Shown here: in pieces, positions 145-32,431 of the stretch
Numbering within the stretch: position 1 is the first letter of the stretch
How the letters are laid out: each line of letters begins with the position of its first letter
Assembly (NCBI GenBank): GCA_000310025.1
Contig: FN649729.1
Location: forward strand, 4,919,039 to 4,983,038
DNA: 64,000 nt
Direction: 5' to 3'
Source of the DNA: Ectocarpus siliculosus
Lineage: Eukaryota; Sar; Phaeophyceae; Ectocarpales; Ectocarpaceae
Position numbers and translations under genes: made by a program
Notes under the pieces: generated by a model
Database searches by the model: none
Told to the model about the DNA's origin: nothing
The model's input: only the letters and a program-made list of their open reading frames with translations

Positions 145-3100
145 GAGGCCACCGCCACCGCCGCCGCTGCCGCTGCCGCTGCAACCGGTGGTGGCGACAA
201 GTCCCAGTCATCGTCGTCGTCCCCCATACCACCCGAGGGCACTATTCCGGTACCCCCGGGCGACCCCAACCCTCGCCCTCAAGAACCCCAGCAGGAGGAA
301 CAACACCAAGGCGGTCGTGCGCGTGAGGAAATGGTGAGGGGAGGGGAGGGCTTAAGATCGGAGGAGCGCGGCGGTGGCCCGCGCCGTGAGGAGCGAGAGA
401 AGGAGTTGTCGCTGCTGCGGAAGCTTGTCGAGAAGCTGCAGCGGGAGGTGGAGGGGCTCAAGTCTGACCTTGAGGTGAGGCTTGGAGGGGACCGATGTCG
501 TGGGTGTTGGTCGTACACGCTCGCAGGAGTGAGAGGTGGGGACGGCAAACGTGTGGATGTGTTTGTGTTATTTGCATCGACCGCGCTAACTGGCTGACCG
601 ATGAAAAGACATCACTCTCAGTGCGGTTGAAAACACGAAATGCTTCTAAAGGACATGATCTGGGACCCCGTGAGGAGGCGTCATGGGGGAATGTGTGTGT
701 GTGTGTGTGTTTCTGACAAGAGCAAAATACGTGCGTTTTGCAGGGGGTTCAATGCCGAGGGCGAGAGGAAGGCGTCGGAGATATCGGAGATGACTCAAAG
801 ACTGTTATTCACTATCCGACATACGTACTCTTGCTATTTTTCAATCCTGGCGTAGTTTCACTGATCAGTCGCTTAGCTCGGTCTACATTACACTAATAAT
901 AAACATACACACGTGACATGTCCTGCGGATTACTTATCTTTGTGTTGGTGCCCCCCGACCCCCCCCCCCCCCCCATTTTCCTTTTGTTCTTCAGGAGGAG
1001 TCTACCGGTCGAAGTCAAGCCCAAAACGCGAAAAATGTCTCGGCGGCCGCTCTCGGCAGGGCTAACGCAAGGATCGCCGAGCTCACGTCCAAGTCTGCTC
1101 AGCTGACCAGGTGAAGCCCCCTGCTGCCGCTTCTCAACCGGTGTTGATGCTGTTGTTCGACGGCACTCGCGTTGGGGAGTTTCGATTCTTCTTTGCTTGG
1201 ATTTGTGTTACGTGTCTCAGAAGGAATCAGTAGAGAGGACGTGTGTCTGCGTTCGTCTCACCTATGCTGGCGCCAGTCTCAGCTGCTCGGAAAGAAAGAA
1301 AGAAAGAAAGAAGCTGCAATAGCCTAAGAGGGGTTGTAGGTCTACTTCGGGATTGGCGTCGAAATGACGTTGTATATATAGCATAGGGACAAAAACCTGT
1401 ACGGTAAATAGTAAATTATCAGCATTGTCATCATCATCCCCGTCAAAGGCAAGTACTGGAGTCAAGTATCAAACACCAACGACGACGAGGACGTAACAGC
1501 AGCGCGGGTATATTCTTGAATCGATGTCTTGGGGGAGGCTGTTTCGTTGAAGCGTCGTCTGTAGGTCGTAAGCACGGACGGTGTAGCAGCTTCTGGTGCC
1601 GACCTACAAAAGTGGGTGAATTGGTGTACGAATCGCGAGAATTGCTGTGCTTACCGTGGCACCCGTTCCGCTCGACGAGATGTCTCAATGTCTCTTGATA
1701 CATCCATGGGCAGCAGTCAACTTCACAATTGAGGGTAGGTGGGAACATGTCACTGCATTCCTTTTCTTCCTATGGCCACAATCCTGCCAATCGCCCTACA
1801 ACGCGCTGACTTTCGTTCTTCTCTTCTTTATCCGTCCTCTCTCTCTGTCTGTTGGCGACCAACACTCCGAAACCAAAACCTGTCAGAGCACGCTCGGCGA
1901 TGGTGGCTCAGATCAATGCTCTTGAAGAGCAGTTGAAATCCGCCGCACTCAAACAGGCCGCCGCTGCCACCGCGGGGGGAGCCGCCGAGACTAACACGAC
2001 GGATAGCGGCTCCGTTGCCGACTTCTCAACGCCCTTGCGAGGTAAGTAGCTTCCTTGGTCTTGACAATAAGCTTTTTTATAAATATGTAAATATATGTTA
2101 GGACCAAACAAACCACACGGAGGTGGACCAAGCATCGCAAGGCAGGGGGGGGTCCGGGGGGGGGTTTACCCCCCCCCGGCACGCTTGGGTGGACCCAGCA
2201 AACCACGCGTGAGGTGAACCAAGCATCGCAACCGCCGGGGGGGGGCAGAGGAGACTCCATCTAAATAGTATCTACAGCAGTATGTAGTCTTGTACCTGGA
2301 GTAGTGCTACTGCTGTATAGAGGTGTGCGTGCATACAATAGAGTGGCTGCGGTGACATCTATCTAGCGTACAACGGGCTCCATCGCAAAGCACCTGAGGA
2401 GTTCTATCAAGTGTGTTACTGTTGGTGCTGCTGGTGCACACCTTTGTACGCACTGCAACTGTGTGTGTGAACCTCTCGCTGTGTGTACCATGGCGGCACT
2501 GCTGTGATGGTACATACAGGTACTCCATGCATATTGTATGCAGACGTAACAAGATCTTGTAGCTTGTAGCAGCAGCAGTCACACCGCACATGGGACGGAG
2601 CCCCCGGATACCCCTCAGTACAAAATCTTCAATCGTAGGGGGGGGGGGGGGGGGGGGGGGGACCCAAAACCGGGGAGGCCCGAAACCTTTTGACCTTGGG
2701 CCCCCACCCCCAAAAAACCCGGAAGGAAACCCCCCGGGTTTCCCCGGGACANNNNNNNNNNNNNNNNNNNNNNNNNNNNNNNNNNNNNNNNNNNNNNNNN
2801 NNNNNNNNNNNNNNNNNNNNNNNNNNNNNNNNNNNNNNNNNNNNNNNNNNNNNNNNNNNNNNNNNNNNNNNNNNNNNNNNNNNNNNNNNNNNNNNNNNNN
2901 NNNNNNNNNNNNNNNNNNNNNNNNNNNNNNNNNNNNNNNNNNNNNNNNNNNNNNNNNNNNNNNNNNNNNNNNNNNNNNNNNNNNNNNNNNNNNNNNNNNN
3001 NNNNNNNNNNNNNNNNNNNNNNNNNNNNNNNNNNNNNNNNNNNNNNNNNNNNNNNNNNNNNNNNNNNNNNNNNNNNNNNNNNNNNNNNNNNNNNNNNNNN

Positions 3101-5133
3101 NNNNNNNNNNNNNNNNNNNNNNNNNNNNNNNNNNNNNNNNNNNNNNNNNNNNNNNNNNNNNNNNNNNNNNNNNNNNNNNNNNNNNNNNNNNNNNNTTTAG
3201 GGTTCCCCCCAAAAAAAAAAAAAAGGGGTTCAAAAAAAAAAAAAACGGTAACCGGGTTGCGAGTTCACGAAGTGAATTGGCTTGTTTTACAACGTCGTTG
3301 CCAAGCGACGAAAACCCAAACCCCGATGGCAAACTCCGGGGGGAGGGGGGGGGGGGGGCAACACCTACGGACATATATGTCGCTTCTTTGTGACCTGGGC
3401 TGCGGGAGGTGCGTCCCCGGGAACCAAAACGCCTGTACAACATCACATCATCAGCAGCAGCAGACAACCCAACCTACATGTAGCAATACAGCGTAGCCAT
3501 CATACCCGCCAGCCTCCTGCCAGGCTGCTCTGCTGCAGGCTACTATGTACTACTGCTGTAACACAGACGGTTGCTACTGCCATGAGCTAGCACGGAACGG
3601 ATCGTCAGACACCAAGCAGTAGTGTAGGTTCGTAGCAGCTCTCTCTTGTGTGATGTTAGCTCTGTGCCTCGGTTTAGGAACCACAGAGCAGCGTGGATGT
3701 ACCCTCTCCTCGTTGCGTGTACATGGACAGGTACAACCTATTGGGCGAAGTGGCTTACGCTGTGCAGCGAGGGACGCTGTCCTCTCGTGCTGCTGACGTT
3801 GTTTCTTTTTTTTTCTTGTCCGATGAACGCGTTGGTTGGATCACAGTGAAAGGGGTCGCAGCATTAGTGGTTGAAAAATTGCAACATGTAGGGATCGATC
3901 GTGACGGATTGAGAACATCAGACGGGAACGTGATCTGAACAAGCACAGCAGTTATTGCGCAGAGAAGGTTGTTGGGCAACATAGTTTCTAACCCCGTACG
4001 CAGGCAGCGCCGCAGCTACGCTTCCCTTTCTTGCCGTTCTCTTGCCATTTCTTTCTTTCATTTCCTCCTTTGCTTGTCGCGTCCCTCTTCTTCTGTTTTT
4101 GTATACCTTTCCTTTTTGGCGTTCGTCTCTCTCGTCCTGTTCTTTCGTCCCTTTTCTTGTGTTCTTAATTCCATTTCCTATCCTTCTTTGCTTCTTTTGC
4201 CCCTCCCTCAGATTTGTCCGAGGTGCCGCCTCCAAGCCAACCGCCGATGAGCGCCGACCCTCCCATGCGGCAACGCCAGCGGCATCGCCTGAGCGGGGCA
4301 GGCCCTAGCAGCGGCAACTTGGACTTAGAAGACGGTGGTGGGTACTTTGATGAGGATGAACACAAGGTACGATTTCGCTCTTTTTCTTCGTCCATAACTT
4401 CTTGATTGTTTGAAGCGGTTTCTCTGGGATGTGGAAGGGGAGGTGGTCTGGAGAGCTGCATTTGTTTCTCGGGGTGGGGATAGTTGCAGGTCGAATGACT
4501 CACGGAGCCCCTCCCCATTGTCCGGGAAGCTAAGCCGAGAACCACACCTTGTACTGGTGCGCTTGTTTTGTGTGTACACGACGATACTAACGAAAGGACG
4601 GCAAAGAATAAATTGTTGATCACGAGCTCTTGTTTTGGCTTCTGCTGTCTGCGACTGCTTTTGCTGTGCATGGTTGACCTCAGGCACAGGCCAAGCCTGG
4701 TGACCACGTCAAGTCCCTGCTCATCTCCTGCGCTTCGAGCCCGGTCGGAGCGGCCATCTCCGAACGGCTGCCCGGGCTAGTTACCTGGTTGCACCAACAG
4801 CCCCCACAGGTGTGTCATGAACGAACGAACGAACGTACGCATGCATGCATGCATCGTAAGCAATGACAAGACGAGTTGATCATGTTGATATATTTTCAGG
4901 CAGAAATCGTCGTCGTTGTCTGTGGTTTAACTACAACATTGAGCACACCCTCGATTTTTTTTTTTCCTGTGAAGCATCCACGTTCCATCACGCGCAACCG
5001 TGATCATAAACGCCAACACACGTTGCAAATGACTGGCAGCATCGAGCATAGACGCGCAGTACACGTTGGCCGTACTTGCACACCTACCGCAAGCGCAGCT
5101 TTGGTACCACACACATATCTAAGGCACGCTTGA
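145..5133 (+). CDS. coiled-coil/low-complexity protein, 5' partial, six exons
   Basis: Exons inferred from splice sites and phase: 145-474, 995-1110, 1887-2041, 4212-4366, 4684-4809 and 4900-5133 (stop TGA). Phases agree at every junction (0, 2, 1, 0, 0), which is the main support. The first exon opens after an acceptor AG with no in-frame ATG, so the start lies upstream of the window. It encodes an Ala/Ser/Pro/Glu-rich stretch and then a charged helix (EREKELSLLRKLVEKLQREV) that looks like a coiled coil. The second and third exons also read as helices (ARIAELTSKSAQLTR, VAQINALEEQLKSAALKQ). The fourth is Pro/acid-rich; the fifth (GDHVKSLLISCASSPVGAAI) looks globular. The last exon is open but unremarkable and is the least certain. 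A possible extra exon near 744-830 was not included because its phase does not fit. I recognise no family; a scaffold or cytoskeletal adaptor is only a guess. Confidence 0.55.
574..690 (+). repeat. interspersed repeat family D, copy 1 (intronic)
   Basis: A 117-bp segment in the first intron begins GCATCGACCGCGC and ends with GGGACCCCGTGAGGAGGCGT and a CATGGGGGA tail. The same order of blocks recurs at 63373-63490, and the 5' block recurs twice at 42189-42366. It sits in GT-rich sequence about 100 bp downstream of a splice donor. No coding capacity or terminal repeats are visible. Confidence 0.7.
1290..1312 (+). repeat. AAAG tetranucleotide microsatellite
   Basis: About five to six units of GAAA/AAAG in the intron between exons at 995-1110 and 1887-2041 of the coiled-coil gene. 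Confidence 0.85.
2101..2236 (+). repeat. two-copy tandem repeat around a G/C homopolymer hairpin
   Basis: Two copies of about 40 bp (2101-2141 and 2191-2235) share AACCACRCG and ACCAAGCATCGCAA, with a period of about 93 bp. Between them a G-run and a C-run flank TTTA and could fold back on each other. Located in the third intron of the coiled-coil gene. Confidence 0.7.
2639..3358 (+). mobile_element. G/C-capped repeat element, copy A (contains gap 1)
   Basis: The right part (3240-3358) matches 41091-41208 nearly base for base, including AACGTCGTTGCCAAGCGACG and the terminal G-run. The left part (2664-2751) aligns with 40685-40790 if homopolymer over-calling is allowed (shared GACCT, CCGGG and GGGTT anchors in the same order). 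The copy is therefore in the same orientation as copy C, bounded by G-runs at both ends, with its middle lost to N. No ORF, LTR or clear target duplication is seen. It lies inside an intron. Class unknown; a non-autonomous element is the likeliest reading. Confidence 0.65.
2752..3195. other. assembly gap 1 (444 N)
   Basis: A run of N. The flanking bases are homopolymer-smeared, consistent with sequencing failure in the G-capped repeat. Confidence 0.99.
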
Positions 5134-12643: not shown

Positions 12644-12715
12644 GCCCCATCCCGCCTGAGCTGGGAAACCTCTCAGCACTGAAGCTTCTCCACCTTGGCC
12701 GAAACGAGCTTAGCG
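12644..12715 (+). CDS. LRR exon 1 of ROCO locus (intact)
   Basis: Exactly 72 nt between a good acceptor (CTCTGTTGCAG) and donor (GTGAGT). Read in phase 1 it gives PIPPELGNLSALKLLHLGRN then ELSG, a plant/SDS22-like 24-residue LRR. Nearly identical to the exon at 13333, together with its flanking intron. Confidence 0.85.
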
Positions 12716-15700
12716 GTGAGTCTCTAGGCACAAGTGTGAAAATGAATCCTGCCTATGGAGTTGGCGGAATACGTGGTCTACAAACCAGGCGGGCGAATTT
12801 TGAATAACAAATATGATCATTTTCAAGCACCCCTCACCGTAAGCTCGATGTCGTAGAGATGAAGTATCTCCAGCTTGCGTGGGGCTCCTAGCTCCTTCAG
12901 GATGTGTCGTGATCATGTTGTACAGCAGAAAGCATCACCACCAAGGTTGCACATTTCTACGACACAGTTTTCCCCCCATTTTCTAGAGCATGTGTCCCGC
13001 ACGGCCTGGGTGAGTAGGTATGTGTTCTGGAAAGCGGGGAATTGTGTGTATATTTCCCGCTGATTTCATTTTTTGCCCTTCTGCTTGCAGGTCCCCTCCC
13101 GCCGGAGCTGGGAAACCTAGCAGCACTACAGCATCTCAAACTTGCGGGCAACCAGCTGAGCGATGGGTCACGAAGTGCAAGTGGCTATTCCTCTTTTCGG
13201 CATGATTCATGCCGACACCGGATGCGAGAGCCTTCTGGAACTCTTGCGGCGCAACTTTCAGATGTTCTACAAGCCGGGAGAAACACTGCTGTTTACGTCT
13301 CGTCGACACTTCTGTTTCGCTCTCTGTTGCAGGCCCCATCTCGCTTGAGCTAGGAAACCTCTCAGCACTGAAGCTTCTTCACCTTGGCCGAAACAAGCTT
13401 AGCGGTGAGTCTTTAGGCACAAATGTGAAAATGAATCCTGCCTTGTTTGGGCGAGTAGACTGTTCATGTTATAGAAACTTAGGCGGGACAACATCTTCTC
13501 CAGATGATTCGAGTGGGCGGGACTGATCTAGAAATTTGATGATTTTTGCCACTTTCGGTGTTCCGCTGTGTTGCTTTGGGCAGGTCCAATACCAACGGAG
13601 CTCGGGGACCTCACCGACCTGAAGGTGCTTGGGCTGAGCAACAACAAACTTACAGGTAAATCGGCATGTACTGCACTTTTTTTTTTCTTTGACTCCCCTT
13701 GACGGTGTTCCTCGACTCATTTAAAAACAATATGCATGGATCCCATCCACGCATAGGCAAGAAGGCTTCTAGAACCCAGTGGAACAACTTTTCACCAACC
13801 AGGGTAAAACAGCAACAAACTGTAACAGTAGTTGACGAAGACCCCATCTTGTCTGTAAGCTGGTTTACATCCAGACCATGCACCACCAGCTTTCTGAGAG
13901 TACCGAGCGCCTCGGGAATAGGTCCTGCACAAGAAAAACATGAAGTTTTTTAGAGGGCGTTCACTGTTTGTTTTTGTGCAAGGTGTTGTGTTATTCTTGG
14001 ACTCATGTATGTATGTCCTGCCAATACATAGGCACACATGTTCTGGCAGCCCGCACAATGGTTCGTTTAACATTTCGCGCTATGCTTCTTGTGCAGGAGC
14101 GATTCCCGAAGAGCTTGTAGCTCTCAGCAAGCTTGACAAGCCTTTCCTGGCCAACAACAAGCTTCCCTTCTGGTAGGAAGCTGTTCCGCTGGGTTCTAGA
14201 AGCCTACTCGCCAATGCATTGTAGGCGGGTACATGTTCTGGAACAGGCGGGAATGTTTTTTTGTTACTCGCCGCTAATCAATTGCTCATGCGCTGCAGGC
14301 CCCATCTCGCCGGAGCTGGGAAAACTCGCTGCGCAGCAAACCCTCGCCCTTTCGCGAAACCAGCGTACCGGTGGGTCTAATGTCTTTCTCTCGATCAAGG
14401 CCAGGATGAATACCGCCGATGCGTTGGCGAGCACTCTTCTAGAACTCAACGTAGCGACTTCTACAAGCACGACCAAACGTCGAAACAGAAACGAATACAG
14501 AGCGCACACATCTTGCCAATGAGACGACTGAAAAGTGTCTCCAGCTTGATGAGAGACCACCTCGGGAATAGATCCTGCAGGTAGAACATCAAAATTTATT
14601 ACCGAAACGTTGAGGCAGATACATATTGTTGGACATGTGTCCCGCCGACCGTGTGGGTGAGTATGGGTTCTGTCTTGAGAAAGCGGGGAATAGATTTTTA
14701 CTTCCCGCTAGATCAGTGCTCGTTTGCTCTTCTGCATGCGGGTCCGATCCCGCGGAGGCTGGGAATCTCGCAGCACTGAAGCACCGATACTTGCAGTAAA
14801 ACCAGCCAATTATTACGGTAAGTTTCAGGATGAGTCCTGTCAATGATTCACGCGTGTTGCTTTCGTCGTAGCTGTCCACCGAAATCCCCAAAATACCCCC
14901 ACCGCTAATTGGTTTTGCTTGGCACGAGAAAGACGCTCCAAGCCGCAAGGTGTACGTGCTCTGTTGGATGGGGCCTGAAGGGAAAGAGTGTACACAAACA
15001 GAGAGGAATTATCAAAGTGCCCCCTGTCGTCGTCCAGAATACATATATATCTCGCCTGTTCTTATGTAGCACGTGAGCCTTCTCACTACTCACCCATGCC
15101 ATAAGTGGGTGGTTCTGGAAACGAGAGGCATTGGAGATAACATGCGACGGCGCATTGCACCTGAAAGCTGGATAGCCCAGCTTAAGGTCCTGCAGCTCTG
15201 TGAGGGCTCCTATCTCCGTGGGTATCGGCCTTGTACAAGCAAAACAACAGCAAAAAAAGATGGGAACATCGTGTATTCAAGCTTTTAGCAAATGTGACCT
15301 GTTGACAGCGTGAGTAGTGTTCATGGGTTTACTTCTGAAGTGCCTATGTACCCGGAGTATTTGATGGATTTTCTTAATGCTTGTGCAGGGAACGTCCCCG
15401 AGGAACTAGGAGCTTTGAAAAAGCTGGAAGAGCTAGCTTACCGGTTAGTACTGTGTGTGTCAAAGGTTAGTATATAGTTTTGCATTGAGTACTTCTCTAC
15501 CATGACTTTCGAGAGTGCTTGTCCGTCATGCGATACGCGCACTAGATACCAGTTTTGTGAGGGGGACTCACGGTGAGCTTGTTGAAATGCGAGCAAAGTA
15601 GTTGCAGGTTGCCGAGCTGCCCTAGAGATGCCGAAATTTACCTACAGGTCACTCAGGGAATGACGATGCTTCATATTTGAGGTTTGTCTATATTAAAATC

Positions 15701-18700
15701 CTGAATAGACTGTATGTCGTTGCTGGTGACACAGGATTTCTACTATTGGAAATCCGCCGACCACACCACGTATCGATGCAGAACTATGGCACGCGCTCGG
15801 GCAGGACGAGGCTGTTTCAATGGAAGCCCGGCCAGGTAGGATAAATGAGTCGCTTGACGATGATATTTTCAAGGTACGTAGATAATTGTCATGTGGACGG
15901 ATGTGAACTTTACGCGATGGTGCGCACCCCCTGTATCGTGTGCTTTGCATGGCAATCTTGGGAATTGGGGAGCCTGTATGTTGAGAAACGGACTGCGCCA
16001 GAGCCCCGTTGAATGACTGCACAGGGAATGAATGCTCTGTAGACAAGACCAGTGTATTTCTGCTCAGCGCGTGCAGCAGCATCCGATCTCGGGAAATATT
16101 CATTAATTAGTCTTCGGATCGCACTTTACGTGTTGCACACAGATGACCTGACCCAATCTGCCTTTGCTATCTGTTGAACAGACTGTCAAGTGGGCTGCAT
16201 TTTCCCGCGCGTGTTCGACAATCAATCTTGTCCCCCGAACTCAAGATGTCGAACGAAGTATGTCTTCCGGCCTAGTTCGGAAATATGTTGGGTTTGGCAG
16301 TCGGCGCCAAACAAGTTCGAACATATTATATAGGGCAGGCGTTACATGTCTGCAACCGGAAACGTGTAGTTGTGAGCACGGAGGGTAGGTGACCTGGTGG
16401 ATATCGAGGCGGCGAGTCTTGCGGGATGCACGCATGCACGCCCATGTTGGGCCGTTGACAGCATGGCGTTTCATGTCTCCGCCCGACCTCATGTTGTGCG
16501 TTCCATATTGACGTTTTTCTAGGTGACCTTCCGGTGCCACTAGCCTCTCTTTTGGACCGCCTTGAACGGATTGCCCGTTTGCATCTTGCCCAAAACCCGT
16601 GGGAGTACCCTCCCGAGGCAATCGTGGCGGGTGGTATACCGGCGGTGAGAAGGTACTTCGAAGCCATCTACATGGGCGGCACTACCGCTGTGACCCGACC
16701 TCTCAAGGTCGTCATCGTTGGAAAGGAGACTGTTGGAAATACCAGGTACGCGAATGCCTCTTTTAGCCTGTTCTGTGTACACAGTCTTATTGTGTTGGCC
16801 TGTGGGAGATAATTAAAATTGATTGTTTTGGCAATGTTGCGTGTGTGTACGCTCAGGTAAACCCATGTCCTTAAGGGCAACGTCCTCTAACCAATGCACC
16901 CTGCCCTCTGCGTGGGATGGCCAGATCGTATTATTGGCGGTGCCTCTGGGCAACGTAGTTGGTGCTGGAAAATACTTGCCAGGTTAATTTATGCACGAGG
17001 TGCGATCAGCACTGGGCGCCATCGGGTTCAAGATCTAGCTCTGAAAGAATGAGTCGACGTGTCCTCGAAGTGGGTCAACATTTTGTGCTGCTCTGAGACG
17101 CTGCGTGAATTTTCCTCATACATTGTAGTCAACACTAGGATTGTCTTCGGCGGCTGAGGAGAAGAGTTGAGCGACATCAGATGCTGTGCGGGTGACTCAT
17201 GCTCACATGACCTGTTTGGTGACAATTGGACTCGGGTTTTACACTCATGTACATTACCGCAGTTTGCGGCGCAGCATCAAGACCGGGAGGCCGTGCATGA
17301 CCAGAGGGGGTGGTGTAGAGAGCACTGTCCAAGTGGATGTCGAAGACCACGATGTCGATGGTCACCCGATTTGGATGTTTGATTGTGCCGGCCATGTGTG
17401 ACGCATTTTGTTGCTCGGTCTTACACGTTTGTTGTGTCGCGGTTTGAGTTGACCCGGGCAGTACGCTTACGTGGAGGGTCGGCGTTTGCCTTTACCTTTC
17501 TGTGGCAATCGCTGAGACTGGAGGTCGAGTTAGGTTCATGTTGTCGTGACTAGCTTCCAACCGTTGTTCCCAGCTTTTCGCATGGACGCCTCCTGCGATT
17601 GCTGTTGTCGTGTTTATCTATTCTAGCTTTTGTAGTGCCGTCCACGCGGGCGCACTGCCAATGATATTCTTCAGCTTACATACCGAACAGTTCTGTTTTA
17701 ACTTCTTGGGGGTGCATTTTTCTTGTTTTCCTCGTTGTTGGTCAGAAACGTGCAGCTGGCGGGAATATCGTCGATACCTAGGTACGATAGACCACCTGTG
17801 GAATATCACTGCGACGATGACTACCACCTCACAGTTTCCTGACCCCGGCCGTGTATGATGAATTTTAGTTTCGTATCCTATGATTCTGCACCCTGCAGCC
17901 AAATTCACATCACGTTGCGATTCATCTGCACCTCTCCACGTGTCTGTGATCCCCCACTTTGACCATTGGACAGGTTGTTTACTACGGATTGCTCCAGCTG
18001 TTTCTCACCCCTCGTGCTGTGTATCTGCTGGTATGGGCTGCGGCGAAAGCCTGCGAGATGAAAGGGTTGGACCTTGAAGACCTTGCGATTGCTCCCTGGC
18101 TACGATACTTGACGTTCCGCGTGCCGGACGCAAGTGTGATACTTGTGGGAAACAAGTGTGACCGCGTGGTGAGGACCAGGCGTACCGCAGTAGCGGTTGA
18201 CGTGGAACATGAGAGCCGCCAATGGCTGGAGTCCTGGATAGAGATTGCGCGCGGACATCAACCACGCGGAATTTCGTTGGAAGATGGCGTCAGTCTCGTG
18301 AGCTGTGCGCCGTCTGATCTTGGCGTCATAGCACCATCATTCGGTGGGGGATCAGGCTGGCCCTGCGACAAGAGTACGCCGGGGCTTTTCCATCGCATCA
18401 TATACAACTCTGCCGATGACATGAGGGCTGTTACCATGCGTCTTCCCGAAAGCTATCGACTCGCCCTTGAGATGCTGGAGGAGCTGGCGTCATGCAGTAG
18501 GTATGGTCATATCGATGCCACGTCCATGTCGCTATTTCGTGTGTGACATACTCTTCCCATGCAGTCCAATACATTTCTGTCACACACACGTCACTGGCGT
18601 AATCAATGTGTGTAGAGTTTGTGGTTTCCACATTGAGCGTAGCGTTGCTGTGTCCGCTCATGTTCATGCACACCTTGGCTCGACAGATGATCAAGCAATG

Positions 18701-20705
18701 CGCCACGGTTGTGTGCGCGTTATCCTTGCATGGTTCGTCGCGAATGGATGGATAAAATTTGCACCTCCTCTTGATTGCACCGCTGTTGCTCCAGGAGCAA
18801 GACCGAACAACAAACCCGCGGCATCACCAGAGCGATTTTGCAGGAAAAGTGGCAAGCTGGGGTGGCTGACCTGAACCGAGCCGGAACGCCAGTAGCGGCC
18901 CCGGACGCGGCCATGTCTGGCGCGATCTTGATCAGGTGGGTTCTGTCTCCGCTTCATTGATTTTCGGTTGGCTCTGTGGAATTTTGTCCTTCGGAACACC
19001 ACTTGTCCAATTTCGTTGGCGTTATTTTTATGAATCGATACCTGAAATTTTCGTTTCGTATGTTTGAAATCTGGGCGCAGAAAGTCACGCAAGATTAAGA
19101 TGTTTACGCTGTATAGGTTGGGACCGTCCTGTCGGACAGTAGAGTTTGTGCAGGTTGCACCTCAACTCTGCTTCCAATATATCGTCGGGCCCGGCGCTGT
19201 ATCATACAACTGCTGTGTGCAGGAAGTGGGCGGGGGGACTGGTGGAATACGGCAGCTACGTCTTCCTCGACGTCGAATGGTTTGCCACAGTTCTGGACCC
19301 TTTGTTTTGTCACAAGCGAGATTCATATGGAAACATCGACCTTGGTGGCATCAGGGTGGTGGACGTTGACAGCTTGGACCGGCTGGACGAAGAACATGTT
19401 TTGGAACCTCAACTCGCTGAAGAGCTGTGGGGCCCAGAGCTCGCACCGCATCTTCTCCTGGCTTTGAAGAGTGCAGGGCTGACGTTTCCCCTACCGAATG
19501 ACTCCAATGGGGGCTTGGTTATCCTTTTGCGCATGGACACGAAGCCGCCACCTGAGTATGGTATCAAGCTCAAGGAAGCAGAACAAGTTAACAATTTCGA
19601 CCTGAGGCTTTTTGTGGAATGCTCGTTCAGTCTAGGGTTGCATCCCGGCTTTGTCGAGCGTCTCCTGGCGCGGTGCTGTCACTTGGGCCTTCCGTACCCC
19701 TTCTGGAGATACGGGGCTCTGATAGTGGGTGACGGCGCGGAAGAAGGGCTGTTTTCGCTGAGTTTAGAGTACTCTGAGAAAGATAAGATTCTGACGGTCG
19801 AGGCGTTCGGAGGGTGTACGGAGGTCTTCGCGTGGGTGGCTCTGTCGAAAGTCCTCTCCGTCACGATCAAGATATGCTCTCGGAGTTCCCTGGTTTACCC
19901 TGCCGGACAATTTTTTTCTGCCCACTCCACAAGACCAACCGCATGAAGATCAGGACTAAAGATGTAAGCGCCCGATTTTGTTGCTCAAAATATTTTTTAT
20001 TCGTTCGATGGTCCTAGTAGTTCCACCTCAACAGAGTGACGTTCGAAGCTAGCGTCACAAATCCAGCTGACGGTTGTGCTGGCCAATCAGCACACTAGCT
20101 GCCTCCAGGTCTTATCAATAATTTGCCTTCTCCCCTTTGGTTCATTCAGATTGTAGACGAGTGTTTTTTGGCCTCACAGGCACGAGAATATCACCACACT
20201 TGCAATCTGCGCACTTACTGATTACGGCGCCCGTCCGCTCTCTCTTTTGGCAGGCACGGCCTGGATCCTGCTTGGTCGGGGAGAGTGACTTTTGTAAACT
20301 ATGTCAGGACCGTTCGGCGGCTCTAGGCCTTGTGGCGGTTGCTCTTCAGGTTGTGGAAATCTCAGACGAGAAGTTCTTCGATGCACAGCTCCGTGAGCAG
20401 TTCGCCGAGAAGGTGGCTCTCCAGGGTTGTGCGTCATGGCCTGGAAGCAACTCCGAGGTGGGGGCGCTTTTTTTTGGTACCGTGTTCAAGCGATGGTGAA
20501 GTACAACATGTAGTGCTGTTTCCCTTGTACAAAGGCCTCCGTCCAGGTCATGATGTGGCTCGACTGCATACATGCATTACAAATATCGGACTGCTCACGC
20601 CTCCGTGAATCATATTTTGCTCGTCTCAGAACCTAACTGACTGTTGTTGTGCAGGTTCCTGGCCCCGGCTCCTCTCCACATCAGTCCGAGCAGCCAAGTA
20701 CCTGA
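12644..20705 (+). CDS. LRR-ROCO GTPase locus (probably degraded, 5' end not found)
   Basis: A candidate receptor-like protein of the ROCO family: leucine-rich repeats followed by a Roc (Ras of complex proteins) GTPase domain and its COR dimerisation domain. LRR exons of 72 nt (24 codons, phase 1-1) lie at 12644-15443. Roc exons are 16523-16745, 17263-17395 and 17974-18500; COR exons are 18795-18935 and 19223-19946, with a tail at 20254-20457 and 20655-20705. Roc/COR junction phases agree throughout (2, 0, 2, 2). G3 (DCAG) and G4 (NKCD) motifs are intact. Oddities: P-loop Lys is Asn, several LRR exons are frame-shifted or lack a splice site, and a poly-T at 19913 probably breaks the COR frame. 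No N-terminal exon was found. ROCO genes with one-LRR-per-exon are known in brown algae and were proposed as variable immune receptors; that role is family knowledge, not shown here. Pseudogene or rapidly diversifying allele are both possible. Confidence 0.7.
12838..12909 (-). pseudogene. inverted LRR exon relic a
   Basis: The reverse complement reads ILKELGAPRKLEILHLYDI then ELT, followed by a donor-like GTGAGG. The acceptor AG is lost and one base is missing before the donor. It sits in the plus-strand intron after LRR exon 1. Confidence 0.7.
13091..13162 (+). pseudogene. LRR exon 2 with dead donor (AT instead of GT)
   Basis: 72 nt after a good acceptor (CTGCTTGCAG), encoding PLPPELGNLAALQHLKLAGN then QLS. 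The expected donor position reads ATGGGT, so the exon cannot end normally; read-through adds a Ser/Arg-rich run. A single G-to-A change would explain it. Confidence 0.75.
13333..13404 (+). CDS. LRR exon 3 (intact)
   Basis: 72 nt, acceptor CTGTTGCAG, donor GTGAGT, phase 1-1. Encodes PISLELGNLSALKLLHLGRN then KLSG. Differs from LRR exon 1 by three amino-acid changes (P to S, P to L, E to K) and about two silent changes. Confidence 0.85.
13584..13655 (+). CDS. LRR exon 4 (intact)
   Basis: 72 nt, acceptor GCTTTGGGCAG, donor GTAAAT, phase 1-1. Encodes PIPTELGDLTDLKVLGLSNN then KLTG, a canonical LRR with the Asn ladder position present. Confidence 0.85.
13853..13924 (-). pseudogene. inverted LRR exon relic b (good acceptor, dead donor)
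   Basis: On the minus strand TTTTTCTTGTGCAG precedes exactly 72 nt encoding PIPEALGTLRKLVVHGLDVN then QLT. The donor position reads AC instead of GT. The sequence downstream on the minus strand (13730-13790, with CTGGGTTCTAGAAGCC) matches the intron after the plus-strand exon at 14097, so exon and intron were inverted together. Confidence 0.8.
14097..14172 (+). pseudogene. LRR exon 5 with 4-nt insertion (frameshift)
   Basis: Good acceptor (CTTCTTGTGCAG) and donor-like GTAGGA, but 76 nt instead of 72. Encodes AIPEELVALSKLDKPFLANN then KLPFW; the extra four bases near 14167 put downstream exons out of frame. Confidence 0.75.
14299..14370 (+). CDS. LRR exon 6 (intact, atypical residues)
   Basis: 72 nt, acceptor CATGCGCTGCAG, donor GTGGGT, phase 1-1. 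Encodes PISPELGKLAAQQTLALSRN then QRTG. Two structural Leu positions are Gln/Arg, so the fold may be weakened. Confidence 0.8.
14511..14574 (-). pseudogene. inverted LRR exon relic c (shortened)
   Basis: Minus strand: CTACCTGCAG followed by SIPEVVSHQAGDTF; the nucleotide sequence matches the LRR consensus (ATTCCCGAGG, AAGCTGGAGACACTTT) with an internal deletion, then GTGTGC as a possible donor. Confidence 0.6.
14742..14817 (+). pseudogene. LRR exon 7 relic (acceptor lost, frameshifted)
   Basis: Clear nucleotide match to the LRR exon (GTCCGATCCCGCGGAGGCTG then CTCGCAGCACTGAAG) ending at a good donor GTAAGT. The acceptor reads GCGG instead of GCAG, and a missing base plus later insertions destroy the frame. 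Confidence 0.75.
14903..14974 (-). pseudogene. inverted LRR exon relic d (length and splice sites intact)
   Basis: Minus strand: CTTTCCCTTCAG, then exactly 72 nt, then GTGGGG. The exon is still open in phase 1 (starts PIQQ, ends QAKPISG), but the core reads out of register because of compensating indels, so the LRR pattern is lost while the module length is kept. Confidence 0.65.
15161..15230 (-). pseudogene. inverted LRR exon relic e
   Basis: Minus strand encodes PIPTEIGALTELQDLKLGY then PAF, followed by GTGCAA as donor. The acceptor GCAG has become ACAA and the module is two bases short. Confidence 0.7.
15389..15443 (+). pseudogene. LRR exon 8, internally deleted
   Basis: After CTTGTGCAG the exon begins NVPEELGALKKLEEL and then jumps to the 3' end pattern (CTTACCG, GTTAGT), consistent with loss of about 17-18 nt around the LxLxxN segment. 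Confidence 0.65.
15572..15641 (-). pseudogene. inverted LRR exon relic f
   Basis: Minus strand: CCTGTAG, then sequence reading SLGQLGNLQLLCSHFNKLT after allowing one missing base, then donor GTGAGT. 70 nt rather than 72. Confidence 0.65.
16523..18500 (+). CDS. Roc GTPase domain exons of the ROCO gene
   Basis: Three exons. 16523-16745 gives a linker (DLPVPLASLLDRLERIARLH) and the start of the GTPase, KVVIVGKETVGNT. 17263-17395 gives S-LRRSIKTGRPCMTR, switch I-like sequence (VESTVQVDVEDHDVDG) and FDCAGHV. 17974-18500 gives VVYYGLLQLFL and VILVGNKCD. The P-loop consensus GxxxxGK[ST] is met except that Lys is Asn (codon AAT); one base would restore it. DxxG and NKxD are normal. The lost Lys should impair phosphate binding, so the domain may be nucleotide-independent or dead. 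Intron 1 splits the P-loop directly after its Thr. Confidence 0.85.
18795..19946 (+). CDS. COR domain exons of the ROCO gene
   Basis: 18795-18935 (GITRAILQEKWQAGVADLNR) and 19223-19946 encode the COR (C-terminal of Roc) region: YGSYVFLDVEWFATVLDPLF, LKSAGLTFPLP and LGLPYPFWRYGALIVG are characteristic. Both junctions are phase 2. The frame ends at TGA 19944-19946 just after seven T residues at about 19913-19919. One additional T would switch to a frame that stays open to a strong donor (GTAAGC near 19965) and gives FFCPLHKTNRMKIR, so the stop looks like a frameshift or a homopolymer sequencing error. Confidence 0.8.
20254..20705 (+). CDS. C-terminal tail exons of the ROCO gene
   Basis: 20254-20457 (ARPGSCLVGESDFCKLCQDR then EKVALQG) has a good acceptor TTTTGGCAG and a donor at 20458. 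20655-20705 (VPGPGSSPHQSEQPST then TGA) follows TGTTGTGCAG. Both are phase 0. The Cys spacing CxxC with an upstream Cys could be a small metal site, which is inference. Linkage to the COR exon depends on the frameshift noted there. Confidence 0.5.
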
Positions 20706-31546: not shown

Positions 31547-32431
31547 CCCCCCCCCCCCCCAACATTGTCTCTGGAAGTGAAAGCACCAGAAAATAAATTA
31601 AGTCATACGTAGCTGTCATCCGTACGCAAGGAAGTAAGCACAAGATGCCGAACACCCTTAACAGGATGCAGCTCACCCTTCATGCGACTCGCCAAATACC
31701 TCACGGCGCTTCGCGCTTGGTGATNNNNNNNNNNNNNNNNNNNNNNNNNNNNNNNNNNNNNNNNNNNNNNNNNNNNNNNNNNNNNNNNNNNNNNNNNNNN
31801 NNNNNNNNNNNNNNNNNNNNNNNNNNNNNNNNNNNNNNNNNNNNNNNNNNNNNNNNNNNNNNNNNNNNNNNNNNNNNNNNNNNNNNNNNNNNNNNNNNNN
31901 NNNNNNNNNNNNNNNNNNNNNNNNNNNNNNNNNNNNNNNNNNNNNNNNNNNNNNNNNNNNNNNNNNNNNNNNNNNNNNNNGGTTACGGTTTTTTTTTTTA
32001 CTTGGGTTTTTTTTTGGGGGGTAACAATAATGTTGGTGGAGTAGATAATGTTGGGGGGGGTGGAAAACCTTCATTTTGGGAAAGGGGGGAGGTTCGAAAA
32101 AGGTTGTGTTAAAATGGTAAAGTTTTTTAAAGGAAGTTTCAAAGGGTTTAAAATTTTTTTGGGAAGGAAAAGCACAAGAAAAAAAATTAATTATTAGGTG
32201 GTTTTTATCGGTAGGAAAGGAAGTAAGAAAAATATGCGGAAAACCTTTAGAGGGAGGAAGTTCACCTTTTTTGGGATTGGCAAAATACTTCAGGGGGTTT
32301 GGGGTTTGGTGATGTGAAAGCTTGTTCGGGTGAAAACCGGGGGTGTTCGTTCCGGGTTTGGTAGGGATGGGAGGTAAATGGTTTAAGGATTAGGGAATGC
32401 AGGATTAGGAGTAAACCCCCCCCCCCCCCCC
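31547..32431 (-). mobile_element. G/C-capped repeat element, copy B (contains gap 2)
   Basis: 31561-31724 matches the reverse complement of 40793-40945 closely (GAAAGCACYAGAAAATAAAT, ACGCAAGGAAGTAAGCACAA). After the gap, 31981-32415 follows the reverse complement of the whole of copy C again, but with most C bases replaced or lost and homopolymers lengthened. The two sides therefore overlap in element coordinates. C-runs bound the region on both sides. Either two copies or one copy plus a bad read. Confidence 0.7.
31725..31980. other. assembly gap 2 (256 N)
   Basis: A run of N inside element copy B. Confidence 0.99.

Follow-up and report, generated by a model that had tools for sequence, protein, structure and literature searches.

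Orientation-free LRR exon cassettes with palindromic ends in ROCO arrays of Ectocarpus siliculosus

When LRR exons lie on both strands upstream of one ROCO gene, a member of a family of candidate immune receptors, the question arises how the reversed ones came to be there, and whether they are debris or part of the architecture of the locus. Shuffling of ROCO exons in brown algae was reportedly described by Zambounis in 2012. According to the accessible parts of PMC11378527, brown algal ROCO genes contain shuffled LRR exons of 72 nt, and loci composed of LRRs alone are considered as a possible reservoir. The same parts cite the diversification of receptors by recombination as a proposal that has been open since 2012, note the lack of any report of recombinant ROCO loci or of a site-specific recombinase, and favor alternative splicing.

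The locus studied here is located in a window of 64 kb, meaning the whole stretch of DNA that was analyzed. It agrees with the published genes in having one LRR per 72-nt exon, matching phases, the order LRR-ROC-COR, with a putative COR part here, and shuffled exons; that brown algae possess such one-LRR-per-exon genes with shuffling, as an earlier note on this DNA had stated, is in the published record (PMC11378527, accessible parts). What these parts do not mention is free orientation of the exons, boundaries of cassettes, or a palindromic junction, and nothing on exon orientation is contained in the accessible parts of PMC5772912 and PMC4421812. Inverted or antisense LRR exons of brown algae did not appear in literature titles or the opening lines of abstracts, a search that does not establish priority.

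LRR modules and ROC-COR body in the window

An nhmmer profile was constructed from 125 distinct exon seeds that came from loci elsewhere, with seeds from the window excluded. All window matches above 5 bits were 14 LRR modules, with scores of 4.5 and 3.0 bits for the next best matches, and the eight forward and six reverse modules that the earlier note had listed were all recovered at their positions and on their strands. Controls were one reversed copy and three block shuffles, each of 288,524 bases. Pooled, they yielded 1 match of at least 9 bits and none of at least 13 bits, compared to 384 and 366, respectively, in the unaltered sequence, of which the seed loci form a part. Scores above those of every control were reached by 12 of the 14 window modules, and the observation in the earlier note is confirmed. 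The reverse modules at 14511 (12.2 bits) and 14903 (9.5 bits) are weak, yet consistent with the spacing of the array. A module was scored as intact under a strict rule when it possessed an AG acceptor, an open frame, and a GT at 72 nt.

12644..12715, forward strand: LRR exon cassette, intact under the strict rule, 68.5 bits
12837..12908, reverse strand: LRR module, acceptor and donor lost, 38.3 bits
13091..13162, forward strand: LRR module, donor lost, 57.2 bits
13333..13404, forward strand: LRR exon cassette, intact, of the same type as that at 12644, 64.0 bits
13584..13655, forward strand: LRR exon cassette, intact, 61.9 bits
13853..13924, reverse strand: LRR module, open frame and acceptor retained, donor lost, 40.6 bits
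14097..14168, forward strand: LRR module, donor lost, 37.0 bits
14299..14370, forward strand: LRR exon cassette, intact, 50.1 bits
14503..14574, reverse strand: weak LRR module (14511), partial match at 14532-14584, 12.2 bits
14742..14813, forward strand: decayed LRR module, 25.6 bits
14903..14974, reverse strand: LRR module, the weakest of the 14, 9.5 bits
15159..15230, reverse strand: LRR module, partly open frame and shifted splice sites, 42.2 bits
15389..15460, forward strand: LRR module, 3' part lost, 23.0 bits
15571..15642, reverse strand: LRR module, 5' part lost, 15.7 bits

The strict rule was passed by 5 of the 14 modules, including the 9.5-bit module at 14903, and 4 intact 72-nt LRR exons are present among the well-scoring modules. 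A 5' flank is shared by the reverse module at 12838 with each of the forward modules at 13584 and 14299, by reverse 14511 with forward 14299, and by reverse 14903 with forward 13091. The flank match between reverse 13853 and forward 14097, which the earlier note had used to conclude that whole exon-plus-intron units were inverted, was not significant and absent among the pairs with a z of at least 4. The conclusion itself can be maintained, since units occur in either orientation here and in sister arrays, and copies face both ways.

Downstream of this array (12.6 to 15.6 kb), the forward strand carries a ROC-COR body.

16525..16746, forward strand: linker and P-loop exon (GKETVGNT) of the ROCO body, matching the sister loci L011 and L010
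17264..17398, forward strand: ROC exon with DCAGH motif, open frame
17950..18546, forward strand: ROC exon and start of COR, Pfam Roc match with E 3.4e-4, relatives in Ectocarpus
19143..19946, forward strand: COR-like exon, similar to the body of locus L024 (36.8% over 228 aa), which is unannotated

The Pfam Roc match is partial and, with 21.3 bits, below the cut-off of 27 bits, and the COR-like exon at 19143..19946 gave no Pfam match. The label ROCO, already used in the earlier note, is nevertheless justified by this partial match downstream on the forward strand together with the similarity of the exons to those of sister loci. The best match of the window ROC exon was an Ectocarpus protein with 84% identity, and the named relatives among the 41 matches of this exon came from Ectocarpus and Sphacelaria. 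At positions 16710-16746, the P-loop reads GKETVGNT in the window versus GKETVGKT in L010 and L011, which probably makes the window gene a pseudogene or a form that does not bind GTP. Because most modules are without a splice site or frame and the P-loop lysine is changed to asparagine, the window locus looks like a relic, with the informative arrays being elsewhere in the genome.

The reverse modules could be debris of random rearrangements if the window contained nothing more than an old gene in decay. This agrees with the mostly broken modules and the lost P-loop lysine, but sister arrays keep the architecture intact with a strict geometry of units, which renders it very improbable. As a general account, decay is refuted by these intact arrays; it describes the window copy as it is today, a degenerate array from a set that extends across the genome. 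The earlier note had considered the locus as a stock of specificity modules whose orientation can change. The anatomy fits this proposal; the flank match cited in its favor does not hold, and the window copy is mostly decayed.

Next to the two N gaps of the window, the open frames at 2563-3473 and 31597-32389 would encode runs of G, P, K, and F, which suggests low-quality contig ends.

Arrays of exon cassettes in the genome

The genome search covered 189 Mb on 492 contigs of one assembly. The pattern CAGGNNNNATHCCNNNNGARYTNGGNNNNYT was present at 273 places, 130 on the forward and 143 on the reverse strand, and at none when read backwards. At a linkage of 10 kb, these places formed 72 clusters, including 52 with at least 2 matches, of which 22 were of mixed strands (159 matches, median spacing 297) and 30 of uniform strand (94 matches, median spacing 1668). 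The number of 22 is a lower bound because, under the strict pattern, the window and the cluster on C29 fall among the uniform ones, whereas the profile detects modules on both strands in each of them.

For 20 of the 22 mixed clusters, stretches of at most 10 kb were fetched. These 20 arrays, which were picked for mixed strands and are thus not a random sample, contain 365 modules of at least 9 bits; a total of 370 results when 5 modules from L005 and L007 are added, with L005 overlapping L028. Acceptor, open 72-nt frame, and donor are all present in 264 modules, 134 of them forward and 130 reverse, so that an annotation of the arrays on a single strand misses about half of the intact modules.

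The distances between neighboring exons depend on their orientation, with medians of 163 (++), 161 (--), 136 (+-), and 189 (-+). Units of constant size (95 + 72 + 68 bp) that face either way would give 163, 163, 136, and 190, and medians of 163, 160.5, 135, and 190 were obtained without the window and with gaps limited to 30-400 bp. Not one of 2000 shuffles of orientation within the arrays matched the difference between the divergent and convergent gaps. This shows that the arrays are built of independent units of about 235 bp with one LRR exon each. The gaps in the window, 89-197 (+-), 158-182 (-+), and 130-184 (same strand), fit this family, few in number as they are. Neighboring modules, those of the window included, switch orientation in 199 of 358 cases compared to 168 expected at random.

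A ROC body was detected in the fetched stretch of 7 of the 20 arrays, always on one side only, with the call for L021 depending on a match to the body of L024, and was not found in the fetched stretch (up to 10 kb) of 13. For L016, a Roc match lies past the end of the fetched stretch, at a distance of about 7 kb from the array. Near-equal numbers of intact exons on both strands would also be in agreement with two opposed genes per array, one reading the forward and the other the reverse exons, but the position of the ROC body on a single side of the fetched stretches in those 7 arrays makes this most improbable. Of the modules in these 7 arrays, 76 point toward the gene and 57 away from it, which is not clearly different from half (p 0.12). 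Intact modules accounted for 68 of the 76 and 43 of the 57 (Fisher p 0.036), a difference too small to prove the use of either set. The pN/pS ratios of about 1.2 in 499 intact exon pairs of the same type and of 1.23 in 15 pairs with both modules facing away are uninformative about selection on the reverse modules and do not show purifying selection on the exons.

Genes for TPR proteins with a similar architecture were rejected as a further example, as no interleaved strands were visible by eye in 98 TPR_12 matches, with 112 of 761 candidates scored. Runs of N are located within the cassette arrays of L009 (near 6118) and L023 (near 4390), where the assembly trouble could be due to plain repeats or to mixed arrangements.

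Cassette copies and palindromic junctions

At 90% identity, the exons sorted into 232 types, 186 of them single. The most frequent types were found on both strands and in many loci: T0 with 18 copies in 9 loci (8 forward, 10 reverse) and T1 with 14 copies in 9 loci (6 forward, 8 reverse). T2 has 13 copies in 8 loci, T4 has 11 copies in 7 loci, and T3 is skewed toward one strand (2 forward, 11 reverse). Among the 20 arrays, 146 matches of at least 150 bp and at least 95% identity were identified, with a median length of 241 bp (quartiles 213 and 272); 145 of them contain one module and one contains two. The two partners are on the same strand in 71 matches and on opposite strands in 75 (two-sided binomial p 0.80). 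L010 even possesses two near-identical pairs that face in opposite directions, with 98.95% identity over 286 bp and 98.9% over 272 bp. Past reorientation of cassettes is well supported.

The arrays L025 and L026 lie on one contig at a distance of 42 kb and have flanks and end cassettes in common, with identities of 95, 94, and 92% at the left end and, at the right end, of 90% and then, farther outward, 84%. The cassettes in between, at positions 4505-7465 of L026 and 4348-8182 of L025, differ in kind and in orientation, and what similarity they have is scattered (69-86%). The right end is also common to L020 and L026, at 90 and 88%. Turnover within the arrays has outpaced point substitution. 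A block of three types (T33, T34, T35) is present twice in L014, unlike the copying of single units elsewhere.

Homology between cassette copies breaks at the 16-bp palindrome CGCCNAYGCRTNGGCG; copies of one type are alike up to a point and then continue into unlike neighbors, as visible in the alignments of the types (for T2 in part). A core was located within 12 bp of 221 of the 346 distinct ends of the 146 matches compared to 8.7% of 2000 random array positions, and the 179 ends with an exact core gave the palindrome C-G-C-C/G-N-A-Y-G-C-R-T-N-G/C-G-C-G. In 582 pairs of the same type, 187 of the 574 left ends and 176 of the 571 right ends had a core within 6 bp, with 25 and 35 for random positions. 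The spacer from GCC to GGC was 8 bp in 61 cases versus 4 after shuffling. Counting against the junction as the site of joining are the 125 of the 346 homology ends without a core within 12 bp and some joins inside the intron, for instance, at L023 6120.

The cores in the gaps were ACGCAT (95), ACGCGT (90), ATGCAT (46), and ACTAGT (22), followed by the rarer ACGCAGT (17), ACTGCAT (14), ACTACAT (5), and ACGTAGT (4), and 95 of 324 gaps had none of these eight. It looks as if GC- and TA-type ends join exactly when alike and lose about one nucleotide when unlike. The strict junction CYYGCCNAYGCRTNGGCRNG occurs at 24 places genome-wide, its backwards pattern at none; an earlier, stricter pattern had yielded 2 places. 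Mixed clusters harbor 21 of these places, C29 harbors one, and C20 and C80 one each. All 24 adjoin LRR modules, which are on both strands on C20 and C80, 2 of the 3 modules on C20 having just 9-10 bits. The flank sequence GGYGRGTACGAAATTTC was in the fetched arrays within 166 bp of a module start at 38 of 38 places.

The window array retains the following junction sites.

13741..13762: junction palindrome remnant, 19.8 bits
14016..14037: weak junction remnant, within background, 7.4 bits
14206..14227: junction palindrome remnant, 14.2 bits
14411..14432: junction palindrome remnant, 19.6 bits

At least 10 bits are reached by 3 remnants, where the remainder of the window predicts 0.37; at least 6 bits are reached by 4, where 2.4 are predicted, which is no clear excess.

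Short pieces without an exon but with repeated flank sequence (for instance, the TACGAAATTTC and GATCTCCGTAGATC elements) are inserted at some junctions of L010, L018, L026, and L027, as if they were mini-cassettes.

In the one-strand LRR loci L031, L032, L034, and L035, 26 of 27 modules are on the main strand, the exception scoring 9 bits, and the junction is absent. L033 (on C29), also fetched as a one-strand locus, turned out to contain 15 modules on mixed strands plus the junction. There is a second kind of locus with one LRR per exon, characterized by a single strand, wider spacing, and no palindromic junction:

G000:C2:738001-746000: one-strand LRR locus L031
G000:C13:1372001-1380000: one-strand LRR locus L032
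G000:C9:919001-925000: one-strand LRR locus L035

Inverted end repeats, free orientation, and the copying of single units between loci would be explained if each cassette was a small DNA transposon or a derivative thereof, carrying an exon and inserting at its own junctions. MITEs are short units with inverted ends that occur in either orientation, and the cassettes resemble them in their terminal inverted repeats, which are inverted half-sites at both ends. They differ in carrying a spliced exon, in being restricted to receptor arrays as far as searched, and in showing no target duplication pattern. Among 97 cassettes flanked by an exact core at each end, 15 were TA on the left and GC on the right, none was TA/TA, and 82 were GC/GC, a class uninformative on target site duplication. 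Dispersed copies were not found either, as every place of the searched flank sequence was beside LRR modules, and a transposon origin of the single cassettes is rather improbable.

The same low probability applies to cassettes as donors of gene conversion, as near the lamprey VLR genes, in which case the sequence alone would be copied and orientation would be irrelevant. Cassettes facing both ways and the 13 arrays with no ROC body detected in the fetched stretch are in agreement with such donors, as are the LRR-only loci proposed as reservoir in the accessible parts of PMC11378527 and the VLR cassettes, which lie in either direction near the receptor gene as LRR modules (PMC3308329, accessible parts). 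There, no cassette is rearranged; instead, each serves as a template for copies that enter an incomplete gene. In the arrays studied here, copies end at the palindrome in the flank and not within the exons, and the flanks travel with the exon, which means that whole units move; the germline exons, with their splice sites, look complete.

Breakage and rejoining as a proposed mechanism

Both as anatomy and as an outcome of evolution, exon cassettes that have palindromic ends and no fixed orientation are well established. As to how they arose, the favored explanation, and a reasonably probable one, is that single cassettes were broken out and rejoined at the palindromic junctions in the germline, in either orientation, and that only those facing the ROC-COR body are spliced. 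The LRR exons of this ROCO subfamily are packed singly in cassettes of about 235 bp. Since the cassette ends are inverted half-sites, neighbors meet at the palindrome. Over evolutionary time, DNA may have been broken repeatedly at these junctions in the germline, breakage being deduced from its outcome, which is visible, and single cassettes may have been rejoined in their own or another array, facing either way. A 72-nt exon is neutral to the frame, so that a cassette oriented toward the ROC-COR body would add one repeat of 24 codons. In a module that points away, the splice sites are on the opposite strand; it should therefore remain in the intron, where, to judge from this orientation, it may constitute a silent and reusable module, so that one binding repeat would be hidden while the gene stays intact.

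Breakage and rejoining at the junctions is compatible with two agents. The palindromes may be fragile themselves and need no enzyme: hairpins or cruciforms would lead to breaks or template switching, that is, to errors of repair or replication, and end joining with 2-nt overlaps would assemble the pieces at random. A perfect palindrome at the joins, short GC and TA overlaps together with hybrid cores that resemble imprecise joins, and joins that lie off the core are in agreement with this possibility, but the site is conserved well beyond palindromy and the breaks are concentrated within about 3 bp of its center, and fragility by itself is somewhat improbable. Alternatively, a dedicated recombinase or domesticated transposase that is still active may recognize the palindrome and invert or move the cassettes, perhaps in somatic cells. 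A defined symmetric site, a fixed unit in free orientation, the restriction of the site to LRR arrays, and the near-identical cassettes facing in opposite directions in one array (98.95% over 286 bp) would be expected from such an enzyme. The accessible parts of PMC11378527, however, report no recombinant ROCO loci and no recombinase in brown algae, each locus is seen in one arrangement in the single assembly, and a dedicated active enzyme is unlikely.

Such a system would resemble the bacterial shufflon, in which several segments are bounded by inverted sites and occur in either orientation (PMC5430464 and PMC11852207, accessible parts). The arrays differ from it in containing spliced exons instead of alternative 3' ends, in being distributed over many loci, and in the copying between loci; no enzyme is known here, and the arrays are known from the sequence of a single assembly. 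A eukaryotic shufflon, in which an enzyme would cut CGCCNAYGCRTNGGCG and, either in the germline or in the body, turn around or relocate single LRR exons of ROCO receptors so that splicing includes or omits one binding repeat, is unlikely as well, if conceivable. If true, it would be the physical substrate for the recombination-based immunity of brown algae, which has been published as a proposal and is unproven.

The question of how the reversed exons arose is now framed by a defined unit, the exon cassette of about 235 bp, a defined site, the 16-bp palindrome, and defined loci. Should breakage and rejoining of single cassettes apply, a reversed exon that is silent within an intron would be an unusual eukaryotic way to keep and swap binding modules.
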